Shown piece by piece: positions 22,615 through 53,432 of a stretch of DNA of 64,000 nucleotides; within the stretch, counting starts at the first letter, position 1; every line of letters begins with the position of its first letter. A program made the position numbers and the translations under genes. The stretch comes from an uncultured Candidatus Cenarchaeum sp. (GTDB lineage: Archaea; Thermoproteota; Nitrososphaeria; Nitrososphaerales; Nitrosopumilaceae). The notes under the pieces were generated by a model. The model searched no databases. It was given only the letters and a program-made list of their open reading frames with translations, and was not told where the DNA came from. The stretch spans positions 604,161 through 668,160 of the forward strand of contig OY282369.1 in assembly GCA_958295735.1 (NCBI GenBank). The letters are read 5' to 3'.

Positions 22615-23427
22615 TTGGCAGCCGCAAGGCCCGGGCCGCGGGCGGGGGGGGAGCGCGCGCGCGGGGCGGGGCGCGCGGCCGCCGAGGAGGACGAGCCGCG
22701 GGCGGGGGGGGAGCGCGCGCGCGGGGCGGGGCGCGCGGCCGCCGAGGAGGACGAGCCGCGGGCGGGGGGGGAGCGCGCGCGCGGGGCGGGGCGCGCGGCC
22801 GCCGAGGAGGACGAGCCGCGGGCGGAGGGCATCCTGGTGGGGGACCGCGCGCTGGTCGCGGACGGGGAGGCGCGGCGCGCGCTCGAGAGGCGCGGGTACG
22901 GCGAGGAGGAGAAGGGCGGGTTCTTCCTGGATTCCTCCGAGGCGCTGTACCTGGTGTACCGCGGGAGCCTCCGGCTCCGCCGGCGCGGGGGGCGGGGCGG
23001 CGAGGTGGGGTTCGAGTCCCTGATGCGCTCGTGCAGGAGGCGGGACGCGGAGGCCCTCTCCAGGTTCCTCATATACAGGGACCTGCGCTCGCGCGGGTAC
23101 GCGGCCAAGGGGGGGTTCGGGTTCGGCTCCGACTTCCGCGTGTACGAGCGCGGGCGCTTCGGCGAAAAGGGCGCCCGCTACGTCGTGTTCGCGATGAGCG
23201 AGGGCACCGGCGAGAGGATAGGCGAGCTACACAAGAAGGTCTCGCAGATAACGCGCATGGGAAAGGAGCCGGTCATGGCGGTGATAGAGCGGCGGGGCGA
23301 GGTGATATACTACAGGGTCTCGAAGGCCTCGTTCCCGCGCAACCGCGAGGCCGCGCGGCGGGAGGAGGACGAAGAGGCCACCGCGGCGCTCGCCCCTAGT
23401 GCTCTGCCCACGCGAACGCGTAGCTGA
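22615..23427 (+). CDS. tRNA-splicing endonuclease subunit, EndA-like, with N-terminal 20-residue repeats
   Basis: The C-terminal half (about residues 146-240) matches the EndA nuclease fold: FLIYRDLRSRGYAAKGGFGF, DFRVYERG and EVIYYRVSKASF. Catalytic Tyr (Y177) and a Lys at about 217 (RMGKEPVMAVIE) are kept, but the His expected about ten residues after the Tyr is missing (the region reads GRFGEKGARYVV). It may be the non-catalytic partner of a heteromeric enzyme. Residues 11-70 are three exact 20-residue repeats (GGERARGAGR AAAEEDEPRA) from a 60-bp DNA duplication. The start is TTG at 22615, 26 bases after a TATA box (TTAGTTATATG, 22580-22590). The 3' end overlaps the convergent gene by 32 bases. 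Confidence 0.78.
   Translation: MAAARPGPRAGGERARGAGRAAAEEDEPRAGGERARGAGRAAAEEDEPRAGGERARGAGRAAAEEDEPRAEGILVGDRALVADGEARRALERRGYGEEEKGGFFLDSSEALYLVYRGSLRLRRRGGRGGEVGFESLMRSCRRRDAEALSRFLIYRDLRSRGYAAKGGFGFGSDFRVYERGRFGEKGARYVVFAMSEGTGERIGELHKKVSQITRMGKEPVMAVIERRGEVIYYRVSKASFPRNREAARREEDEEATAALAPSALPTRTRS
22628..22818 (+). repeat. three exact 60-bp tandem copies inside the EndA-like gene
   Basis: Identical blocks with a 60-bp period end at GAGGAGGACGAG in each line of the region and stay in frame, adding 20 residues each. Confidence 0.95.
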
Positions 23428-24055
23428 GCAGGTTGTCGCGCTCGGCGCGGGAAAAGTCGTGCACGCTGACATGCTCCGTCCTGTCGCTCCACAGGTTCTC
23501 AAAGTCGCGGATCTTGGTCTCCACCCTCCCCGCGTCCTCCCACGACGTGAACACGTCCACGGACTCGAAGTTGGCGCTGGCCTCGCCGAACGTCTGGTTG
23601 GACGTGCCGTTGAACGCCACCGCGTCGCCGGCGGCGTCCCTGAATATGCCCACCCGTTCCGCGAAGCCGCCCCGCGCCGGCTCGCCGTCGGGCACGGCCA
23701 CCCGCACCATGATCCTCCCGGCGTCCGCCATCCCCCGCATCACGTCCTCCGGCGTCGGCGCCCCGCCCCGCGGGGCCCCGCGCCGGCCCCGCCGCTTCCC
23801 GGCGAGCAGCCGCGAGGTGTAGTCGAGGTCCGACGCGAAGAACCTGTGCCCGCAGACCGCCCTCAGCCTCGCCCCGCCGCGCGCGAAGCCGGCGCCGGCG
23901 CCGGCGACCAGCGGCGCCAGCCCCCTGAGGGAGACGTACTCGGCGCAGCGGTCGTACTCGGCGCAGTTGTTCAGGCACGGGACTATGAGCTCCGACACTA
24001 TGTCGTTCCGGTCGAACCTGTACTCCTGCCTCAGCGGTATGTCGCGGAGCGCCAC
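23396..24055 (-). CDS. stand-alone PLD-like domain of the helicase-associated type
   Basis: A 219-residue protein resembling the N-terminal phospholipase-D-like module found at the front of certain DEAD/DEAH helicases: RFDRNDIVSELIVPCLNN, then VAFNGTSNQTFGEASANFES, VDVFTSWEDAGRVETKI and FENLW. Here no helicase follows; the protein stops after a 30-residue tail (LLSYAFAWAEH). A central insert (RRGRRGAPRGG) is low complexity. GTG at 24055 lies 25 bases below a TATA box (GTTTATTAGG, rc about 24076-24085), so it is expressed as a separate gene. It may be a defence-system fragment or a reduced nuclease; the paired HKD residues are not obvious. Confidence 0.6.
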   Translation of the reverse strand: MALRDIPLRQEYRFDRNDIVSELIVPCLNNCAEYDRCAEYVSLRGLAPLVAGAGAGFARGGARLRAVCGHRFFASDLDYTSRLLAGKRRGRRGAPRGGAPTPEDVMRGMADAGRIMVRVAVPDGEPARGGFAERVGIFRDAAGDAVAFNGTSNQTFGEASANFESVDVFTSWEDAGRVETKIRDFENLWSDRTEHVSVHDFSRAERDNLLSYAFAWAEH

Positions 24056-24444
24056 GCGCCCTTCCCTCCCCGTTGCCTAATAAACGGCGCGGGGCATGGC
24101 GCCCCCCGGCCGAACCGGCCCCGGCGGCGGGCCGTCGCGGCCGGCCCCGCGCCCGGGCCGCGGGGGGCGCGGGCCGCGCGGTTCCGGCCGATCCCCCCGC
24201 CGCGGATCGCGGGGGGCCGCGTTCCCGGTGCGCGCCCGCCTTGCCCGCCCGCCCGCCGCGCCGGTTCCTCGCGCAGCGGCGCCGTCCCCGGTCCCGCCGT
24301 TCCGGCGGCGCGGATCCGCCGTGCCGGCGCCGGCCAAGGGATCCCGCCGTCCGGCCGGGATTGCGCGGCGCGCGGGCCCGCCGGGGCGGCCCCGGGTCGC
24401 GGCGCGGGGGGGAGGCAGGCGCGCGCCGTTCCGGCCCGTAGCCC

Positions 24445-24513
24445 ACCCCACAACCGCGCCCGCGGCGGCCGCGGCGGGGCGGCCTTCCGCGCCCGAAATT
24501 CGAGTTGCGGGAC
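24445..24513 (+). repeat. dispersed repeat family D, copy 2
   Basis: A 69-bp copy of the element at 18712-18779, with slightly diverged ends (ACCCCACAAC...GTTGCGGGAC) and the shared inner CGCGCCCGAAAT. It lies in the gene-free, GC-rich stretch 24086-24531, where I see nothing else. Confidence 0.75.
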
Positions 24514-24562
24514 AGGCTGCCGGCCCGCATGGGTTATTATGCGGCCGAAGGATCCGCCGGCC

Positions 24563-24994
24563 GTGAACAGCGAGGACTTTAGGCTGCTCAGGAAGAGCGT
24601 CCAGGAAGCGTACGACATGACGGGGGAGATGAAATCCATGGCGGAGTTGGAGTTCAGGAAGGTGGACGAGGCGTTCAGGAAGGTGGACGAGGCGTTCAAG
24701 ATTGCGGATCTGCGGCTGTCCGACATGGAAAAAAGCGCCAAGAGGATGAGGCGGCGGATCTCCGACCTGGAGTCGGAGGCGGAGTCGACGAAGCGGCGCA
24801 TCACCTACCCGGAGGAGGCGAGGCGGCGGATCTCCGACCTGGAGTCGGAGGCGGGGGAGGCGAGGCGGCGGATCTCCCGCATGGAAGGGATCTTGGAGAT
24901 GCGCGGGGCGGGCGGCGCCGGGGAGGCCGCCGGCGGGATGCCGGAGGCGGACCGGGACGGCGCCGGCCCGGGCCAGAACCGAGGCCGCGCCTGA
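24563..24994 (+). CDS. coiled-coil protein, tandem paralogue 1
   Basis: Unrecognised 143-residue protein that is almost wholly helical. After a lead (VNSEDFRLLRKSVQEAYDM) come duplicated FRKVDEAF segments and three RRISDLE-type heptad modules (about residues 65-110), then RRISRMEGILEMRG and a Gly/Ala tail (GPGQNRGRA). GTG at 24563 is 25-28 bases after a TATA box (GGTTATTATG, 24531-24540). The last 110 bases are nearly identical to those of paralogue 2, indicating recent gene conversion or duplication. It is the first of four related units in a row. Confidence 0.75.
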   Translation: MNSEDFRLLRKSVQEAYDMTGEMKSMAELEFRKVDEAFRKVDEAFKIADLRLSDMEKSAKRMRRRISDLESEAESTKRRITYPEEARRRISDLESEAGEARRRISRMEGILEMRGAGGAGEAAGGMPEADRDGAGPGQNRGRA

Positions 24995-25043
24995 CGGGCG
25001 CGGGCCCGCGCGGGTTATTACGGCGGGGGGATGCACGGTCCCC

Positions 25044-25382
25044 GTGTGCGGCGAGTACGGCGAGGAACGCGAAAAGCACGCCATGAAAATATTCGAGTTG
25101 GCGGACAACATGGGATCCATGATGAATATGCTGGGGGAGGAGGCGAAGGGGGTGATCGGGGACTTGGGGCGGCACATCTCCGACCAGGAAAGGAAGGCGG
25201 GGCGGGCGGAGCGGCGGATCTCCCGCATGGAGGCCGCGGCGGCGGAGGACGAGCGGCGGATCTCCCGCATGGAAGGGATCCTGGAGATGCGCGGGGCGGG
25301 CGGCGCCGGGGAGGCCGCCGGCGGGATGCCGGAGGCGGACCGGGACGGCGCCGGCCCGGGCCAGAACCGAGGCCGCGCCTGA
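25044..25382 (+). CDS. coiled-coil protein, tandem paralogue 2
   Basis: A 112-residue relative of its neighbours, unrecognised outside this array. The N-terminus CGEYGEEREKHAMKIFELAD parallels paralogue 3 (GGKYGEEREDQETKILQTID); the middle has RHISDQE and two RRISRME modules; the tail is the same as in paralogue 1. GTG at 25044 lies 25-30 bases after GGTTATTACG (25012-25021). Each paralogue has its own promoter, so they are separately transcribed rather than an operon. Confidence 0.75.
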   Translation: MCGEYGEEREKHAMKIFELADNMGSMMNMLGEEAKGVIGDLGRHISDQERKAGRAERRISRMEAAAAEDERRISRMEGILEMRGAGGAGEAAGGMPEADRDGAGPGQNRGRA

Positions 25383-25446
25383 CGGCAGCGGGCCGCTCCC
25401 CGACCCCGCCGGCCGCGGCGGGCCGGGGCCCGCGCGGCTCCGGGCG

Positions 25447-25530
25447 CGAGGTCAGCAGCCCCCGCTCCGCAGGCGTGAACGCGGATCGACAGAGTCGTTT
25501 TCACGCCTGCGGCCAGCACGTACGTGACCC
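25447..25530 (+). repeat. dispersed repeat family B, copy 2 (strong hairpin)
   Basis: An 84-bp element from GAGGTCAGC to GTACGTGACC. Its inside holds exact 13-bp arms CCGCAGGCGTGAA (25467-25479) and TTCACGCCTGCGG (25500-25512) around a 20-nt loop, so transcripts would fold strongly. It lies between coiled-coil paralogues 2 and 3. Confidence 0.85.
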
Positions 25531-25584
25531 CACACGGCTCCTGGCTCGCACGAGTTATTACGAAGGGGGGGATGCCCGGCACCC

Positions 25585-25860
25585 GTGGGCGGCAAGTACG
25601 GCGAGGAACGCGAAGATCAGGAAACGAAGATACTCCAGACGATAGACGACCTGAAATCCATGATGATGTCTGTGGAGAAGGATGTAGACGTGGCGATAGA
25701 GGATGCGTTGGCGAGGATATCCGACCTGGAAAAGGGGGGGAAGCAGGCGAAGCGGAAGATCTCCGACCTGGAGTCGGTAGTGGAGAAGGGCAGGCGGCGG
25801 ATCTCCCACCTGGAAGAGATCCTGAAGACGCGCGGGGCAGAACAGGGGACGGGCTCCTAG
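25585..25860 (+). CDS. coiled-coil protein, tandem paralogue 3
   Basis: A 91-residue paralogue: GGKYGEEREDQETKILQTID, MMMSVEKDVDVAIEDALARI, then modules ARISDLEKG, RKISDLESV and RRISHLEEILKTRG. It ends early (AEQGTGS) and lacks the Gly/Ala tail of paralogues 1 and 2. GTG at 25585 follows GAGTTATTACG (25551-25561) by 25 bases. Base composition is slightly less GC-rich than in its neighbours. Function unknown; a structural or oligomerising role is all the sequence allows. Confidence 0.72.
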   Translation: MGGKYGEEREDQETKILQTIDDLKSMMMSVEKDVDVAIEDALARISDLEKGGKQAKRKISDLESVVEKGRRRISHLEEILKTRGAEQGTGS

Positions 25861-25950
25861 GGGCAGGGCGGGAAGGCGGGCTCCGCCCGGGCAGGCGGCG
25901 GCGGCCCGGGCCGCCGAATACGCGTGCCGCCGGCAGGCGGTTCCCGGTGC

Positions 25951-26038
25951 CGGCTCGGGTCAGGACCGAAACCGCGGGCGGCGGCGGCAGGCCGCTCCAC
26001 GATCCCGCGCCCTGATCGCGACGGACGCGGCATGCGCG
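25951..26038 (+). repeat. dispersed repeat family A, copy 2
   Basis: Diverged copy: GACCGAAACCGCGGGCGG ... CGATCCCGCGCCCTGATCGCG, between paralogue 3 and the decayed fourth unit. Confidence 0.6.
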
Positions 26039-26043
26039 GTTCC

Positions 26044-26436
26044 CGCCCCGCGCGGGCTGTTGCGGGAACGGGGGATCCGTCCGCCGCGAACGGTGGGGTC
26101 TTCCCGCCCTGCCGCGCGCAAGAGATCACGGCGCTGTACCAGATGCTGGAGAAGGTGAGTTCCACGGAGGCGGAGACGGCGGGCGAACTAGGCGGGATGG
26201 AAGAGGAGTCGAGAGGGCAGTTCTTCGGTCCGGAGCGGGGATGGCGGAGACGAAGAGGCGGATCTCCGGTCCGGAGGGTAGGATGGACGAGGCGGAGCGG
26301 CGGATCTCCGGCTTGGGGGGGGATGGTGAAAGAGATGCGCGGGGCGGGGGATGGCGGAAATTCCGGCGGAGGCGCCGGGCGGGGGAGCTGGCGGCGCCGC
26401 GGAGGCCGCCGGCAGGATGCGGGAAATCGACTAGCC
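26044..26436 (+). pseudogene. decayed fourth coiled-coil paralogue
   Basis: Aligned by eye to paralogue 1: the TATA box (GGTTATTATG there) reads GGCTGTTGCG here, and the start region GCCGTGAACAGC reads GCCGCGAACGGT, so the GTG is now GCG. Downstream, remnants lie in different frames: ALYQMLEKVSSTEAETAGEL in one, and MAETKRRISGPEGR / EAERRISGLGG in another, before MREID and a TAG near 26433. Loss of promoter, start and frame together support a pseudogene of the same family. Confidence 0.65.
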
Positions 26437-26703
26437 GCGCGTCTCTTGCGGCATGGCCACCGCACCACGGAACGGTCGTAGGCGAAATGCGGTAAGAAGG
26501 CAAGAGGGCAGGCTAACGGGGGCGATCCTGCGCAGGCAGCCAATTTTGCCGCAGGCGCAAGTTGCGTGCATCCTGTTGCGAGATGGCGGAGACGAACCTA
26601 CATCAATGGTAGTATTTGCAGTTCATTAGACATGGTGCCTGCCCGCGAGCAAAACCTTGGGGGGTTACGCCGCAGGCAGGCGTGATGGTGGTTACCTTTC
26701 AGG

Positions 26704-27354
26704 TTATAATTGTAGTCTGGCCAAAAGTTTTGACAGATCGTCCATAGTGCAGGCAAAGACATTACGTTTGTTGGATGCTTGGCGGAGACTCTCGATCTTG
26801 GTAGCGCCGCGGATCGTATTCGGCAGGTTGTAGTATGGGCCGTCGGCTATGGCGACGAATGCATCATCAGACGAATGGGACTCGTTGGCTTCCTTTATGA
26901 ACAGGTGAAGATCGCTGTATTGGTTGTCTTGCGCGCCGCCGCTTTCCTTGGTGTATTTGTGGGTGGCATAAACGGTGTATTTTCCAGTTTGCCACTGAAA
27001 GTCTATAGTCTTGGCAGCCGGATTACCTCCCCTTTGTGTTAGTTCCTTCCTAGTCATAACTAGTCCGGCGCAGATGGATTTGTCAGAGTTGTGAAGATCA
27101 ACAAAATCTCTGACAGCATCCATTTCTCGAATGTGCTTGGCGGCCAGATTTTCGTAAAAGTTTTGTTTTTTTGGATCTTTCACGAAAAACCACCTGAAGA
27201 TGGGGTCACGTCGTATCTTGGCCTTTATCTGATCTTCTGACAATCCCGTCATGTCCACAAACGATTTGATTTTTCGGGCCGCGTCAGACAGTCTGAACGC
27301 TTTGTAGTTTTCGACCCGTGCTCGCTGGAGTTCGGCTTCCCAGTCAGGAACCAT
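26704..27354 (-). CDS. putative type II restriction endonuclease
   Basis: A 216-residue protein directly after an adenine methyltransferase. No database match can be run, but the stretch THKYTKESGGAQDNQYSDL followed by LHLFIKEAN looks like the core of a restriction nuclease, and the context is decisive: its ATG (27352-27354) lies inside the last codons of the methyltransferase (ATGGTTCCTGA, 11-base overlap). It would cut unmethylated foreign DNA. Base composition is clearly less GC-rich than the window, as for the methyltransferase, which points to horizontal transfer. Between it and the decayed paralogue (26437-26703) I see no gene. Confidence 0.6.
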   Translation of the reverse strand: MVPDWEAELQRARVENYKAFRLSDAARKIKSFVDMTGLSEDQIKAKIRRDPIFRWFFVKDPKKQNFYENLAAKHIREMDAVRDFVDLHNSDKSICAGLVMTRKELTQRGGNPAAKTIDFQWQTGKYTVYATHKYTKESGGAQDNQYSDLHLFIKEANESHSSDDAFVAIADGPYYNLPNTIRGATKIESLRQASNKRNVFACTMDDLSKLLARLQL

Positions 27355-28266
27355 ACGCGATCACAAACTTGCGTGCCAAGCCGTAGTCAAGTCGCCTCCG
27401 ATACATCCCGTCTTTGCGGAGCCCTTTGAACGGTGTCAGAAATACGTCAAACGTATTCTTGCGAAACGTTGTGAACCGGCGATTTAGTTCTTCTATGTTT
27501 GGACGGCTTATGCCGCTAATCCGTGTAATTGACCTGGAACTGAACTTGATGTCGTGGGAGATCCCCCCCCCCCGCAGAATCGTATGGATGGCCCCACAGT
27601 GTTGTCTATGCCGATGAGCCCGAGGTTGCCGTTCTTGTCGTTGAATCTGACGGACATCCTCTCGTTGGGTTGCGGTATGAAACGCTCTAGGTTTTTCACG
27701 GTGTCGGCGTAGCAGTTGTCATAGTACACGCGAGTGTCCCGAACTGGGTCTCCGAAGAGCGCCAAACAGACAGGATTCTCAGTGTCGTCAAATGTCTTGC
27801 TGTTGAGGAATATGATGTGGGACAGCCTGTCCCTGAAAAGGCCGCTTTGGAGGAATGATGCGGGGATGATGAAACCCACGTACCGGCAGTGCTCCAGCGC
27901 CAGCTCAAGGCAATGCTTGTAGAGGTCGTCAAAACCTATGTCGGGGTAGTGGATCTTCCGGCGGCGGGCAGAATACCGGCCTAGCCACGGCGGGTTGCTT
28001 ATGCATACGTCGTAGCCGTTCGGGAATTTGGTCAGCGTGTCCTGCTTGCGGACATGGGGGGATGCAGGTCTTATGTCGTATGACGCGAATCGCCTACACT
28101 GATCGGTGCTCTGGAGCATCCTGATCAAGTTGTTCCTTCCGGCAAACGGCTCCAAGACCACCCTCTCCTTCATGCGGATCTTTATGCCCCATCTGCGAAA
28201 GGGCCTCAGTTTGAATGGATTGCCCTGCGTGTAGTAACGCCCTTCCTCGCGCTTTTGCCGCTCCAT
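27344..28266 (-). CDS. N6-adenine DNA methyltransferase, frameshifted at an 11-G tract
   Basis: Modification enzyme of the restriction pair. SAM-binding motif I is EPFAGRNNL (residues 39-47) and the catalytic motif IV is SNPPW (90-94). The frame from ATG 28266 stays intact to about residue 230 and then enters a run of 11 G (27563-27573, C on the plus strand); the as-read frame ends early at 27508. Adding one G (or removing two) restores a frame reading ISHDIKFSSRSITRISGISR and on to RKFVIAYGS with a stop at 27344-27346, overlapping the nuclease start, about 307 residues. Either phase variation or a homopolymer sequencing error. A TATA-like TTTTTAATTACC lies upstream (rc about 28288-28300). 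Low GC suggests transfer. Confidence 0.85.
27563..27573 (-). repeat. 11-nt poly-G tract in the methyltransferase gene
   Basis: Eleven consecutive C on the plus strand (G in the gene). Tract lengths of 9 or 12 give the full-length enzyme; 11 gives a truncated one. Confidence 0.95.
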
Positions 28267-28357
28267 GCAGAAGAATGTCCGGGTCTAGGGTAATTAAAAA
28301 TTTCATGATAGACTAGTTCTGCGCACAATTTAAATATGAAACAGGGATGTGCGCAAC

Positions 28358-29397: not shown

Positions 29398-29480
29398 GTA
29401 GACTTACGCCCGAACCGAAACCGCGCCCGGCGGCAACGAACCGCCCCCCGATCCCGCGCCCGGATCACGACGGACGCGAG
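29398..29480 (+). repeat. dispersed repeat family A, copy 3
   Basis: TAGACTTACGCCCGAACCGA ... GATCCCGCGCCCGGATCACG, the closest copy to that at 53345-53432. It lies between the tRNA-Glu promoter and purE. Confidence 0.75.
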
Positions 29481-29601
29481 CCTGCACTGCGCGCCGCGCG
29501 GATGCATCCGCCGCGATCCGGGCGCCGGATCGGGGGCGGCCTGCCGCCGCCGGGCGCGGTTCCGGCTCGCGCGCGGGCCCGGGCGCGGGGGGCCGGCGCG
29601 A

Positions 29602-31182: not shown

Positions 31183-31975
31183 CGGCGGGCGGCTCCCCAC
31201 GCGGCCGGGCGGCTCCCCCGGGGGCGGCTCCCCACGCGGCCGGGCGGCTCCCCCGGGGGCGGCTCCCCACGCGGCCGGGCGGCTCCCCACGCGGCCGGGC
31301 GGCTCCCCCGGGGGCGGCTCCCCACGCGGCCGGGCGGCTCCCCCGGGGGCGGCTCCCCCGGGGGCGGATCCCCCGGGGGCGGATCCCCCGGGGGCGGATC
31401 CCCCCCCCCCCGCAAGGAGGCGGCTCCCCACGCGGCCGGGCGGCCCCGGGCGGCTCCCCCCCGCAAGGAGGCGGCTCCCCACGCGGCCGGGCGGCTCCCC
31501 CGGGGGCGGCTCCCCTCCCCCCCCCCTCCCACGCGGCCGGGCGGCTCCCCCCCGCAAGGAGGCGGCTCCCCACGCGGCCGGGCGGCTCCCCCGGGGGCGG
31601 CTCCCCTCCCCCCCCCCCTCCCACGCGGCCGGGCGGCTCCCCCGGGGGCGGCTCCCCTCCCCCCCCTCCCACGCGGCCGGGCGGCTCCCCCCCGCAAGGA
31701 GGCGGCTCCCCACGCGGCCGGGCGGCTCCCCCGGGGGCGGCTCCCCTCCCCCCCCTCCCACGCGGCCGGGCGGCTCCCCCGGGGGCGGCTCCCCCCCTCC
31801 CACGCGGCCGGGCGGCCCCGGGCGGCTCCCCCCCTCCCACGCGGCCGGGCGGCCCCGGGCGGCTCCCCCCCCCCTCCCACGCGGCCGGGCGGCCCCGGGC
31901 GGCTCCCCCCCCCCCCCTCCCACGCGGCCGGGCGGCCCCGGGCGGCTCCCAGGGAGCGGCTCCCCTCCCCGACGG
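31183..31975. repeat. large GC-rich degenerate repeat block
   Basis: About 790 bp made of variants of two motifs, CGGCTCCCCACGCGGCCGGG and CGGCTCCCCCGGGGG, with inserted C runs (C12 at about 31400) and CCGCAAGGAGG interruptions. All six frames are open through it, which is a composition effect; I find no gene. It starts four bases after a gene stop. Confidence 0.9.
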
Positions 31976-32944: not shown

Positions 32945-33060
32945 GGCCGCGATCGGGCGCGGACCCGCGCCCAAACCGGAGCCGCACCAAGCGGCGGCGG
33001 GCCGCCCCGCGATCCCGCGCCCGGATCGCGGCGGGCGCGGGTCCGGGCGCGATCGGGTAC
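32945..33060 (+). repeat. dispersed repeat family A, copy 4
   Basis: Diverged copy: CCCAAACCGGAGCCGC ... GATCCCGCGCCCGGATCGCG, starting just after the NikR-like gene stop. Confidence 0.6.
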
Positions 33061-43804: not shown

Positions 43805-43880
43805 CCAAGCAGGAACCGCGCCCGGCAGCAACGAACCGCCCCCCGATCCCGCGCCCGGATCGCGGCGGGCGCGGATCCGC
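43805..43880 (+). repeat. dispersed repeat family A, copy 5, within a gene-free stretch
   Basis: AGGAACCGCGCCCGGCAGCA ... GATCCCGCGCCCGGATCGCG. The surrounding 43190-43966 is GC-rich, with a (GGGC)n-type microsatellite near 43734-43772, and no supported gene. Confidence 0.65.
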
Positions 43881-53344: not shown

Positions 53345-53432
53345 CTTATGTCCAAACCGAAACCACGCCTAGCGGCAACAATCCGCTCCGCGATCCCACG
53401 CCTAGATCACAGTGGACGCAAGTCTACACCCG
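53345..53432 (+). repeat. dispersed repeat family A, copy 6 (best preserved)
   Basis: TATGTCCAAACCGAAACC ... GATCCCACGCCTAGATCACA ... GTGGACGCAAGTCTACAC, between rpoD and the L18e promoter. It contains a small hairpin AGCGG-CAACAAT-CCGCT and a doubled CCACGCCTAG. Confidence 0.8.

Follow-up and report, generated by a model that had tools for sequence, protein, structure and literature searches.

Three small genes in tandem, followed by a broken fourth unit and a set of restriction-modification (R-M) genes, raise the question of what this locus makes and how it arose. We addressed this question in the window, a 64-kb stretch corresponding to positions 604161-668160 of a single 3,166,131-base contig, with a GC content of 71% in the window.

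Layout and coding signature of the array

The original prediction had placed three intact open reading frames and one decayed unit in this segment, and all four were present. Together with their candidate promoter boxes, they are arranged as follows:

24534..24539, plus strand: TTATTA promoter box (putative) of gene 1, 23 nt 5' of the GTG
24563..24994, plus strand: gene 1 (P0001), predicted coiled coil of 143 aa with a Gly-rich tail
25015..25020, plus strand: TTATTA promoter box (putative) of gene 2, 23 nt 5' of the GTG
25044..25382, plus strand: gene 2 (P0002), predicted coiled coil of 112 aa with three 14-residue modules and the same tail as gene 1
25555..25560, plus strand: TTATTA promoter box (putative) of gene 3, 24 nt 5' of the GTG
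25585..25860, plus strand: gene 3 (P0003), predicted coiled coil of 91 aa with three 14-residue modules and one predicted helix (residues 4-88)
26057..26062, plus strand: decayed promoter box of unit 4, CTGTTG
about 26086..26436, plus strand: decayed unit 4, frameshifted and without codon periodicity, with approximately two 42-nt modules remaining

The RRIS(D/R)(L/M)E modules described for these genes do repeat, often at a spacing of 42 nt, and a 79-nt reference recovered seven register copies at an identity of at least 60%. Gene 1 carries four RRIS-type modules, one of which is four residues shorter and contains a proline, as well as an in-frame 21-nt tandem repeat at 24652-24698. In decayed unit 4, the GTG start has become GCG at 26086, which lies 23 nt from the CTGTTG box. 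Genes 1 and 2 were said to have an identical end of 110 bp; the shared end is real, but it comprises 101 identical nucleotides up to and including the stop codon, plus three beyond it. This identical end sits within a block of about 197 nt at approximately 91% identity and adjoins divergent sequence, a pattern expected from gene conversion or unequal crossing-over.

Given that open frames are poor evidence of coding in GC-rich DNA, where many frames overlap, we tested the GC content by codon position. The contrast between codon positions was 0.455 for gene 1, 0.420 for gene 2 and 0.451 for gene 3, values that none of 5000 shuffles reached for any of the genes, and the same was true (0 of 5000 shuffles each) when only the N-terminal non-repeat parts of the three genes were considered. 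The contrast was absent from decayed unit 4 (0.078) and from three intergenic stretches (0.029-0.070). Genes 1-3 are truly coding; decayed unit 4 is not. Third-position GC (GC3) was 0.93, 0.91 and 0.80 in genes 1, 2 and 3, respectively, with the first two resembling seven nearby genes (0.91-0.96).

Could the units nonetheless be decaying remnants, no longer under selection and kept merely by a locus that is rich in repeats and prone to recombination? One of the four units is clearly dead, and the paralogues have diverged to an extent near the neutral expectation, as this scenario would have it. However, codon periodicity is complete in three frames that have stayed open, 85 codons of genes 2 and 3 align with 78 base differences and zero indels, and boxes and starts are retained in all three intact units. 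Moreover, drift at 71% GC should raise the GC content of the first and second codon positions, yet these stay at 0.61-0.71 (GC1) and 0.35-0.50 (GC2) in genes 1-3. We therefore regard such a remnant as unlikely.

The description of the products as coiled-coil paralogues was borne out by prediction. Indeed, the hydrophobic period of P0001-P0004 (P0004 being a dispersed gene described below) was 3.50, 3.54, 3.54 and 3.56 residues, close to the 3.5 of a heptad. AlphaFold models of the monomers consisted of long helices: a single one in gene 3 (residues 4-88; mean pLDDT 89.4) and two in gene 1 (3-78 and 83-118; mean pLDDT 82.1), interrupted close to the proline of the short module. Model confidence was low for the gene 1 tail, as is the case for disordered tails.

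A promoter-start cassette and the search for relatives

Each gene of the array had been proposed to have its own leaderless-type promoter, and the boxes support this. The TTATTA box does precede the GTG of genes 1-3, at 23, 23 and 24 nt rather than the "about 25" bases given before, and the PLD-like gene next to the array, which is conserved in relatives, has a TTATTA 22 nt 5' of its own GTG. Such spacings of 22-24 nt agree with an archaeal TATA box ahead of a leaderless start. TTATTA occurs only 10 times in the 64-kb window, counting both strands, and the extended pattern TTATTAYGN{6,9}GATSC is found at five places in the 3.17-Mb genome, compared to 0 and 0 for reversed controls. Given this rarity and these pattern counts, we dropped chance as the origin of the TTATTA-GTG spacing. 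The five places are the three array genes, a site at 704 kb (L084) that lies 5' of P0004, and a further site (L085). As the pattern was derived from the array genes and the P0004 gene, these four match by construction, and the test lies in the fact that almost nothing else does. L085 was left out of the family, since it is a T/A-rich stretch that lacks a coiled-coil gene among the listed open reading frames.

The dispersed gene is located approximately 75 kb from the array:

L059:880-1557 (about 703.4-704.1 kb of the contig), minus strand: P0004, predicted coiled coil of 225 aa

P0004 contains five identical 54-nt repeats, GGLEDAKEQISDLKEEVA, and shares the promoter-start cassette with the array, accounting for one of the five genome-wide matches. 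Its tail motif, GGMREPGQ, is similar to the GGMPEAD of genes 1 and 2. When its protein was searched against its own genome, the array genes appeared only at E 0.38, which is not significant by itself, and coiled-coil similarity is in any case weak evidence of homology. P0004 is thus a probable further member of the family, mainly on account of the cassette, the short start context and the GGM(R/P)E tail motif.

P0004 scored above three curated Pfam cut-offs (DUF883, 30.0 vs 25.4 bits; REST_helical, 27.8 vs 27; DUF2746, 23.3 vs 23), and passing three mutually unrelated families at once is a sign of a composition effect. DUF883 and the other Pfam coiled-coil models share amphipathic helix repeats with P0004, whereas genes 1-3 pass none of them. 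DUF883 proteins carry a C-terminal membrane anchor; reading the P0004 tail revealed no long hydrophobic stretch, and therefore no anchor of this type.

Consistent with the earlier statement that no known family could be recognized, genes 1-3 exceeded no curated cut-off in Pfam or NCBIfam, and their matches in Pfam, NCBIfam, PHROGs and PADLOC were weak and of the coiled-coil type. Gene 2 had no match at E 0.01 in any of the 249 other genomes among 250 of the family, and a search of genome contigs with gene 3 returned no relatives. The only relative from the corresponding gene 1 search (L102) was the coiled-coil region of a V/A-type ATP synthase subunit E, which has the peptide MKSMAELEFRK in common with gene 1 and aligns at 34% over 92 columns. 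With 257 Gb searched from short peptide seeds such as KSMAELEF, some matches will arise by chance; of the 83 stretches picked up by seeding, one was retained. A Pfam search of gene 1 at E 0.1 did not bring up subunit E. We judged L102 to be a seeded chance or coiled-coil match.

Searches with P0004 and with alignment A2 gave matches in nine of 249 other family genomes at E ≤0.001 (best 6.6e-6) and six of 399 other genomes of the class (best 1.7e-5), respectively. We inspected the loci for four of these 15 matching genomes and took all four to be compositional matches: a coiled-coil linker before another domain, presumably a copper-protein domain (L086), a fragment at a contig end (L093) and two other small coiled coils (L094 and L096). 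The last two, of 146 and 74 aa, are small archaeal heptad-repeat proteins, short and repeat-built like those of the array and with heptad units that look expandable. Their similarity to the array is, however, weak and of the coiled-coil-composition kind (E 8.5e-5 for L094 and 8.9e-4 for L096); L094 has a hydrophobic, membrane-type segment at its end, L096 is short, at 74 aa, and neither locus showed a tandem array or the promoter cassette among its listed open reading frames. A fold search of gene 1 against the PDB gave a best E of 1.0, with none at 0.001, and sequence searches of the PDB gave 0.0072 (a laminin chain) and 0.0095 (a designed protein), neither of which was informative.

Might the genes derive from phage structural proteins, for example scaffold or tail coiled coils, that the host has domesticated? 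Some PHROG families of scaffold and tape-measure proteins did match, weakly. Those PHROG families are themselves coiled coils, though, and many unrelated models match in the same way. In addition, gene 3 had no match to phages at E 0.01, alignment A1 and P0004 had 0 and 0 matches in viral contigs, and the GC3 of the array is native, all of which makes a phage origin highly improbable. Gene 1 also had no match among plasmids. Judged by similarity searches, the family appears to have no convincing relative in the 249 other family genomes, the two genome-contig scans, viral contigs, phages or plasmids. Among the genomes searched, the array is restricted to one, and its species is represented by that one genome. 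The part of the literature that we surveyed held nothing on this family. Archaeal 'dark matter islands' (PMC4158269) are described as resembling the array in this respect: they consist of narrowly spread, fast-evolving archaeal genes without assigned function.

Neighbouring genes and dispersed repeats

The array is flanked by the following genes:

23396-24055, minus strand: stand-alone PLD-like protein, 219 aa
26704-27354, minus strand: type II restriction-enzyme-like protein (phrog_18366, E 9e-5; GC3 0.54)
27508-28266, continuing to about 27340, minus strand: Eco57I-like methyltransferase, frameshifted at an 11-C run (27563-27573)

In another genome of the same genus (G005; 2,045,086 bases) and in a second relative (G011), the flanking endA and SIMPL genes are close neighbours, separated only by the PLD-like gene, which runs in the opposite direction. 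The spacer between the PLD-like and SIMPL genes, as read from the sequence, is about 160 bases in G005; in the present genome it extends over 24056-28348 (approximately 4.3 kb) and is filled by the array and the R-M genes. Compared with these two relatives and their short spacers, this stretch is an insertion.

This comparison also bears on the PLD-like protein, which the original prediction had called an orphan. It is not one: G005 and G011 both have the conserved gene in this position, and the G005 counterpart is 49% identical. It matched PbeA (E 6.6e-34; profile positions 2-222 of 672) through the N-terminal PLD-like region, and the proteins of all three genomes match only the N-terminal third of PbeA. 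The helicase region of PbeA is absent from the 219-aa protein and from its homologues of 218-219 aa in the two relatives. Read by eye, the histidine of the HKD motif appears to be missing.

The implied link of the array to defence neighbours was not supported either, since the R-M genes are foreign in composition, with a GC3 of 0.54 and 0.71, compared to 0.80-0.93 for the array, and the PLD-like gene has long been established at the locus. On these grounds, composition for the R-M genes and the conserved position in both relatives for the PLD-like gene, we rejected the array as part of the R-M system and the PLD-like gene as part of the array's history. The restriction-enzyme-like gene was probably acquired together with the methyltransferase. 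In the latter, the first part matches positions 4-218 of the phrog_18657 profile, and the piece past the C tract matches 256-296 in the next frame; the frameshift reflects either a phase-variable archaeal R-M gene or a sequencing error in the run.

Several dispersed repeats were also observed:

25447..25532, plus strand: one copy of a dispersed 86-nt palindrome, 5' of gene 3
25360..25409, plus strand: rep2 copy, 80% over 50 nt (E 1e-7), spanning the last codons and the stop of gene 2
25965..26027, plus strand: rep2 copy, 82.5% over 63 nt, downstream of gene 3
2504-2572, 29408-29476, 29507-29572, 32969-33037, 43805-43871 and 53352-53418: other rep2 places

The 86-nt element has at least 43 matches in this genome, where 40 of 128 candidates were scored (L014-L042 among them); 20 relatives, with the same-genus genome among them, had no match. 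Several copies lie just 5' of TATA-like boxes, and the element is reminiscent of a MITE or of a structured regulatory repeat. For rep2, eight places were found in the window at E 1e-4, the query itself included, and the copies at 29408 and 29507 are mutually inverted. Separately, clustered C runs of 10-13 bases occur at 31400-31917 in a region rich in Pro/Arg/Gly repeats. The GC-rich 3.17-Mb contig exceeds every listed genome of the family, with the same-genus genome at 2.05 Mb.

Divergence and growth of the family

The earlier description of the family as diversifying stands with regard to changes in repeat number, the near-identical end beside divergent sequence, and an excess of changes at the first and second codon positions over the third. 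Between genes 2 and 3, the changes at positions 1, 2 and 3 numbered 29, 32 and 17, with a Nei-Gojobori ratio of about 2.2. Neutral simulations at an equilibrium GC of 0.71-0.93 (300 runs per setting) gave about 26/29/23, and 17 or fewer third-position changes occurred in 2-9% of runs. Since neutral runs reach similar third-position counts, we did not accept a dN/dS near 2 as proof; positive selection on the array paralogues is suggested, not proven. Genes 2 and 3 show no purifying signature at the protein level, and some copies could be drifting. By heptad register, they are identical at 6 of 11 a positions, 2 of 10 d positions and 3-4 of 10-11 at the others. The d positions are poorly conserved and the core is not uniformly more conserved, which counts against a simple picture of a fixed core and a free surface.

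The codon-position pattern, along with the R-M genes that adjoin the array, would be in line with an arms race in which positive selection acts on the outer surfaces of the proteins, whether their task is anti-phage, anti-restriction or host interaction. Besides the neutral runs with equally few third-position changes, however, the GC3 bias depresses synonymous counts, the composition of the R-M genes is different, relatives that lack the array have nonetheless kept the PLD-like gene, and the PADLOC matches were weak and of the coiled-coil type only. We consider this explanation improbable.

The reading that we favour, and hold to be reasonably probable, is that of a young, lineage-specific family of cytosolic coiled-coil oligomers that grew by duplication, repeat-length change and gene conversion. 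This mode of growth is well supported, with the 21-nt repeat in gene 1, the 54-nt repeats in P0004 and the 101-nt identical end arguing for repeat-driven change. We infer that each intact copy is transcribed separately from its TTATTA TATA-type box and that translation is leaderless, from the start codon 23-24 nt past the box. The predicted product would be a small, soluble, rod-like helix that oligomerizes via an Ile(a)/Leu(d) heptad core, with the number of modules (14-residue in the array, 18-residue in the dispersed member P0004) setting the length of the rod and, in genes 1 and 2, a flexible Gly/Pro-rich tail following it. New copies would arise by tandem duplication of promoter and gene, change length by in-frame gain and loss of repeats, and swap 3' ends by gene conversion or unequal crossing-over; a copy would die through the loss of its box, start and frame.

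As to cellular role, we can only speculate; our tentative proposal is that the products act as a scaffold or adaptor inside the cell, each paralogue pairing with itself and with the others. Similarly tentative is the idea that promoter-plus-start cassettes captured repeat-built DNA in this GC-rich genome and made coiled-coil genes of it; on this view, diversifying pairing rods, with ends derived in part from rep2, grew within the lifetime of the species or genus. If right, this would be archaeal gene birth and diversification caught in the act, with a defined insertion site, live copies beside dead ones, a separate promoter for each gene, and repeat units whose number can be compared across strains. 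The family would then offer a direct test of whether coiled-coil pairing codes diversify by selection or by drift.
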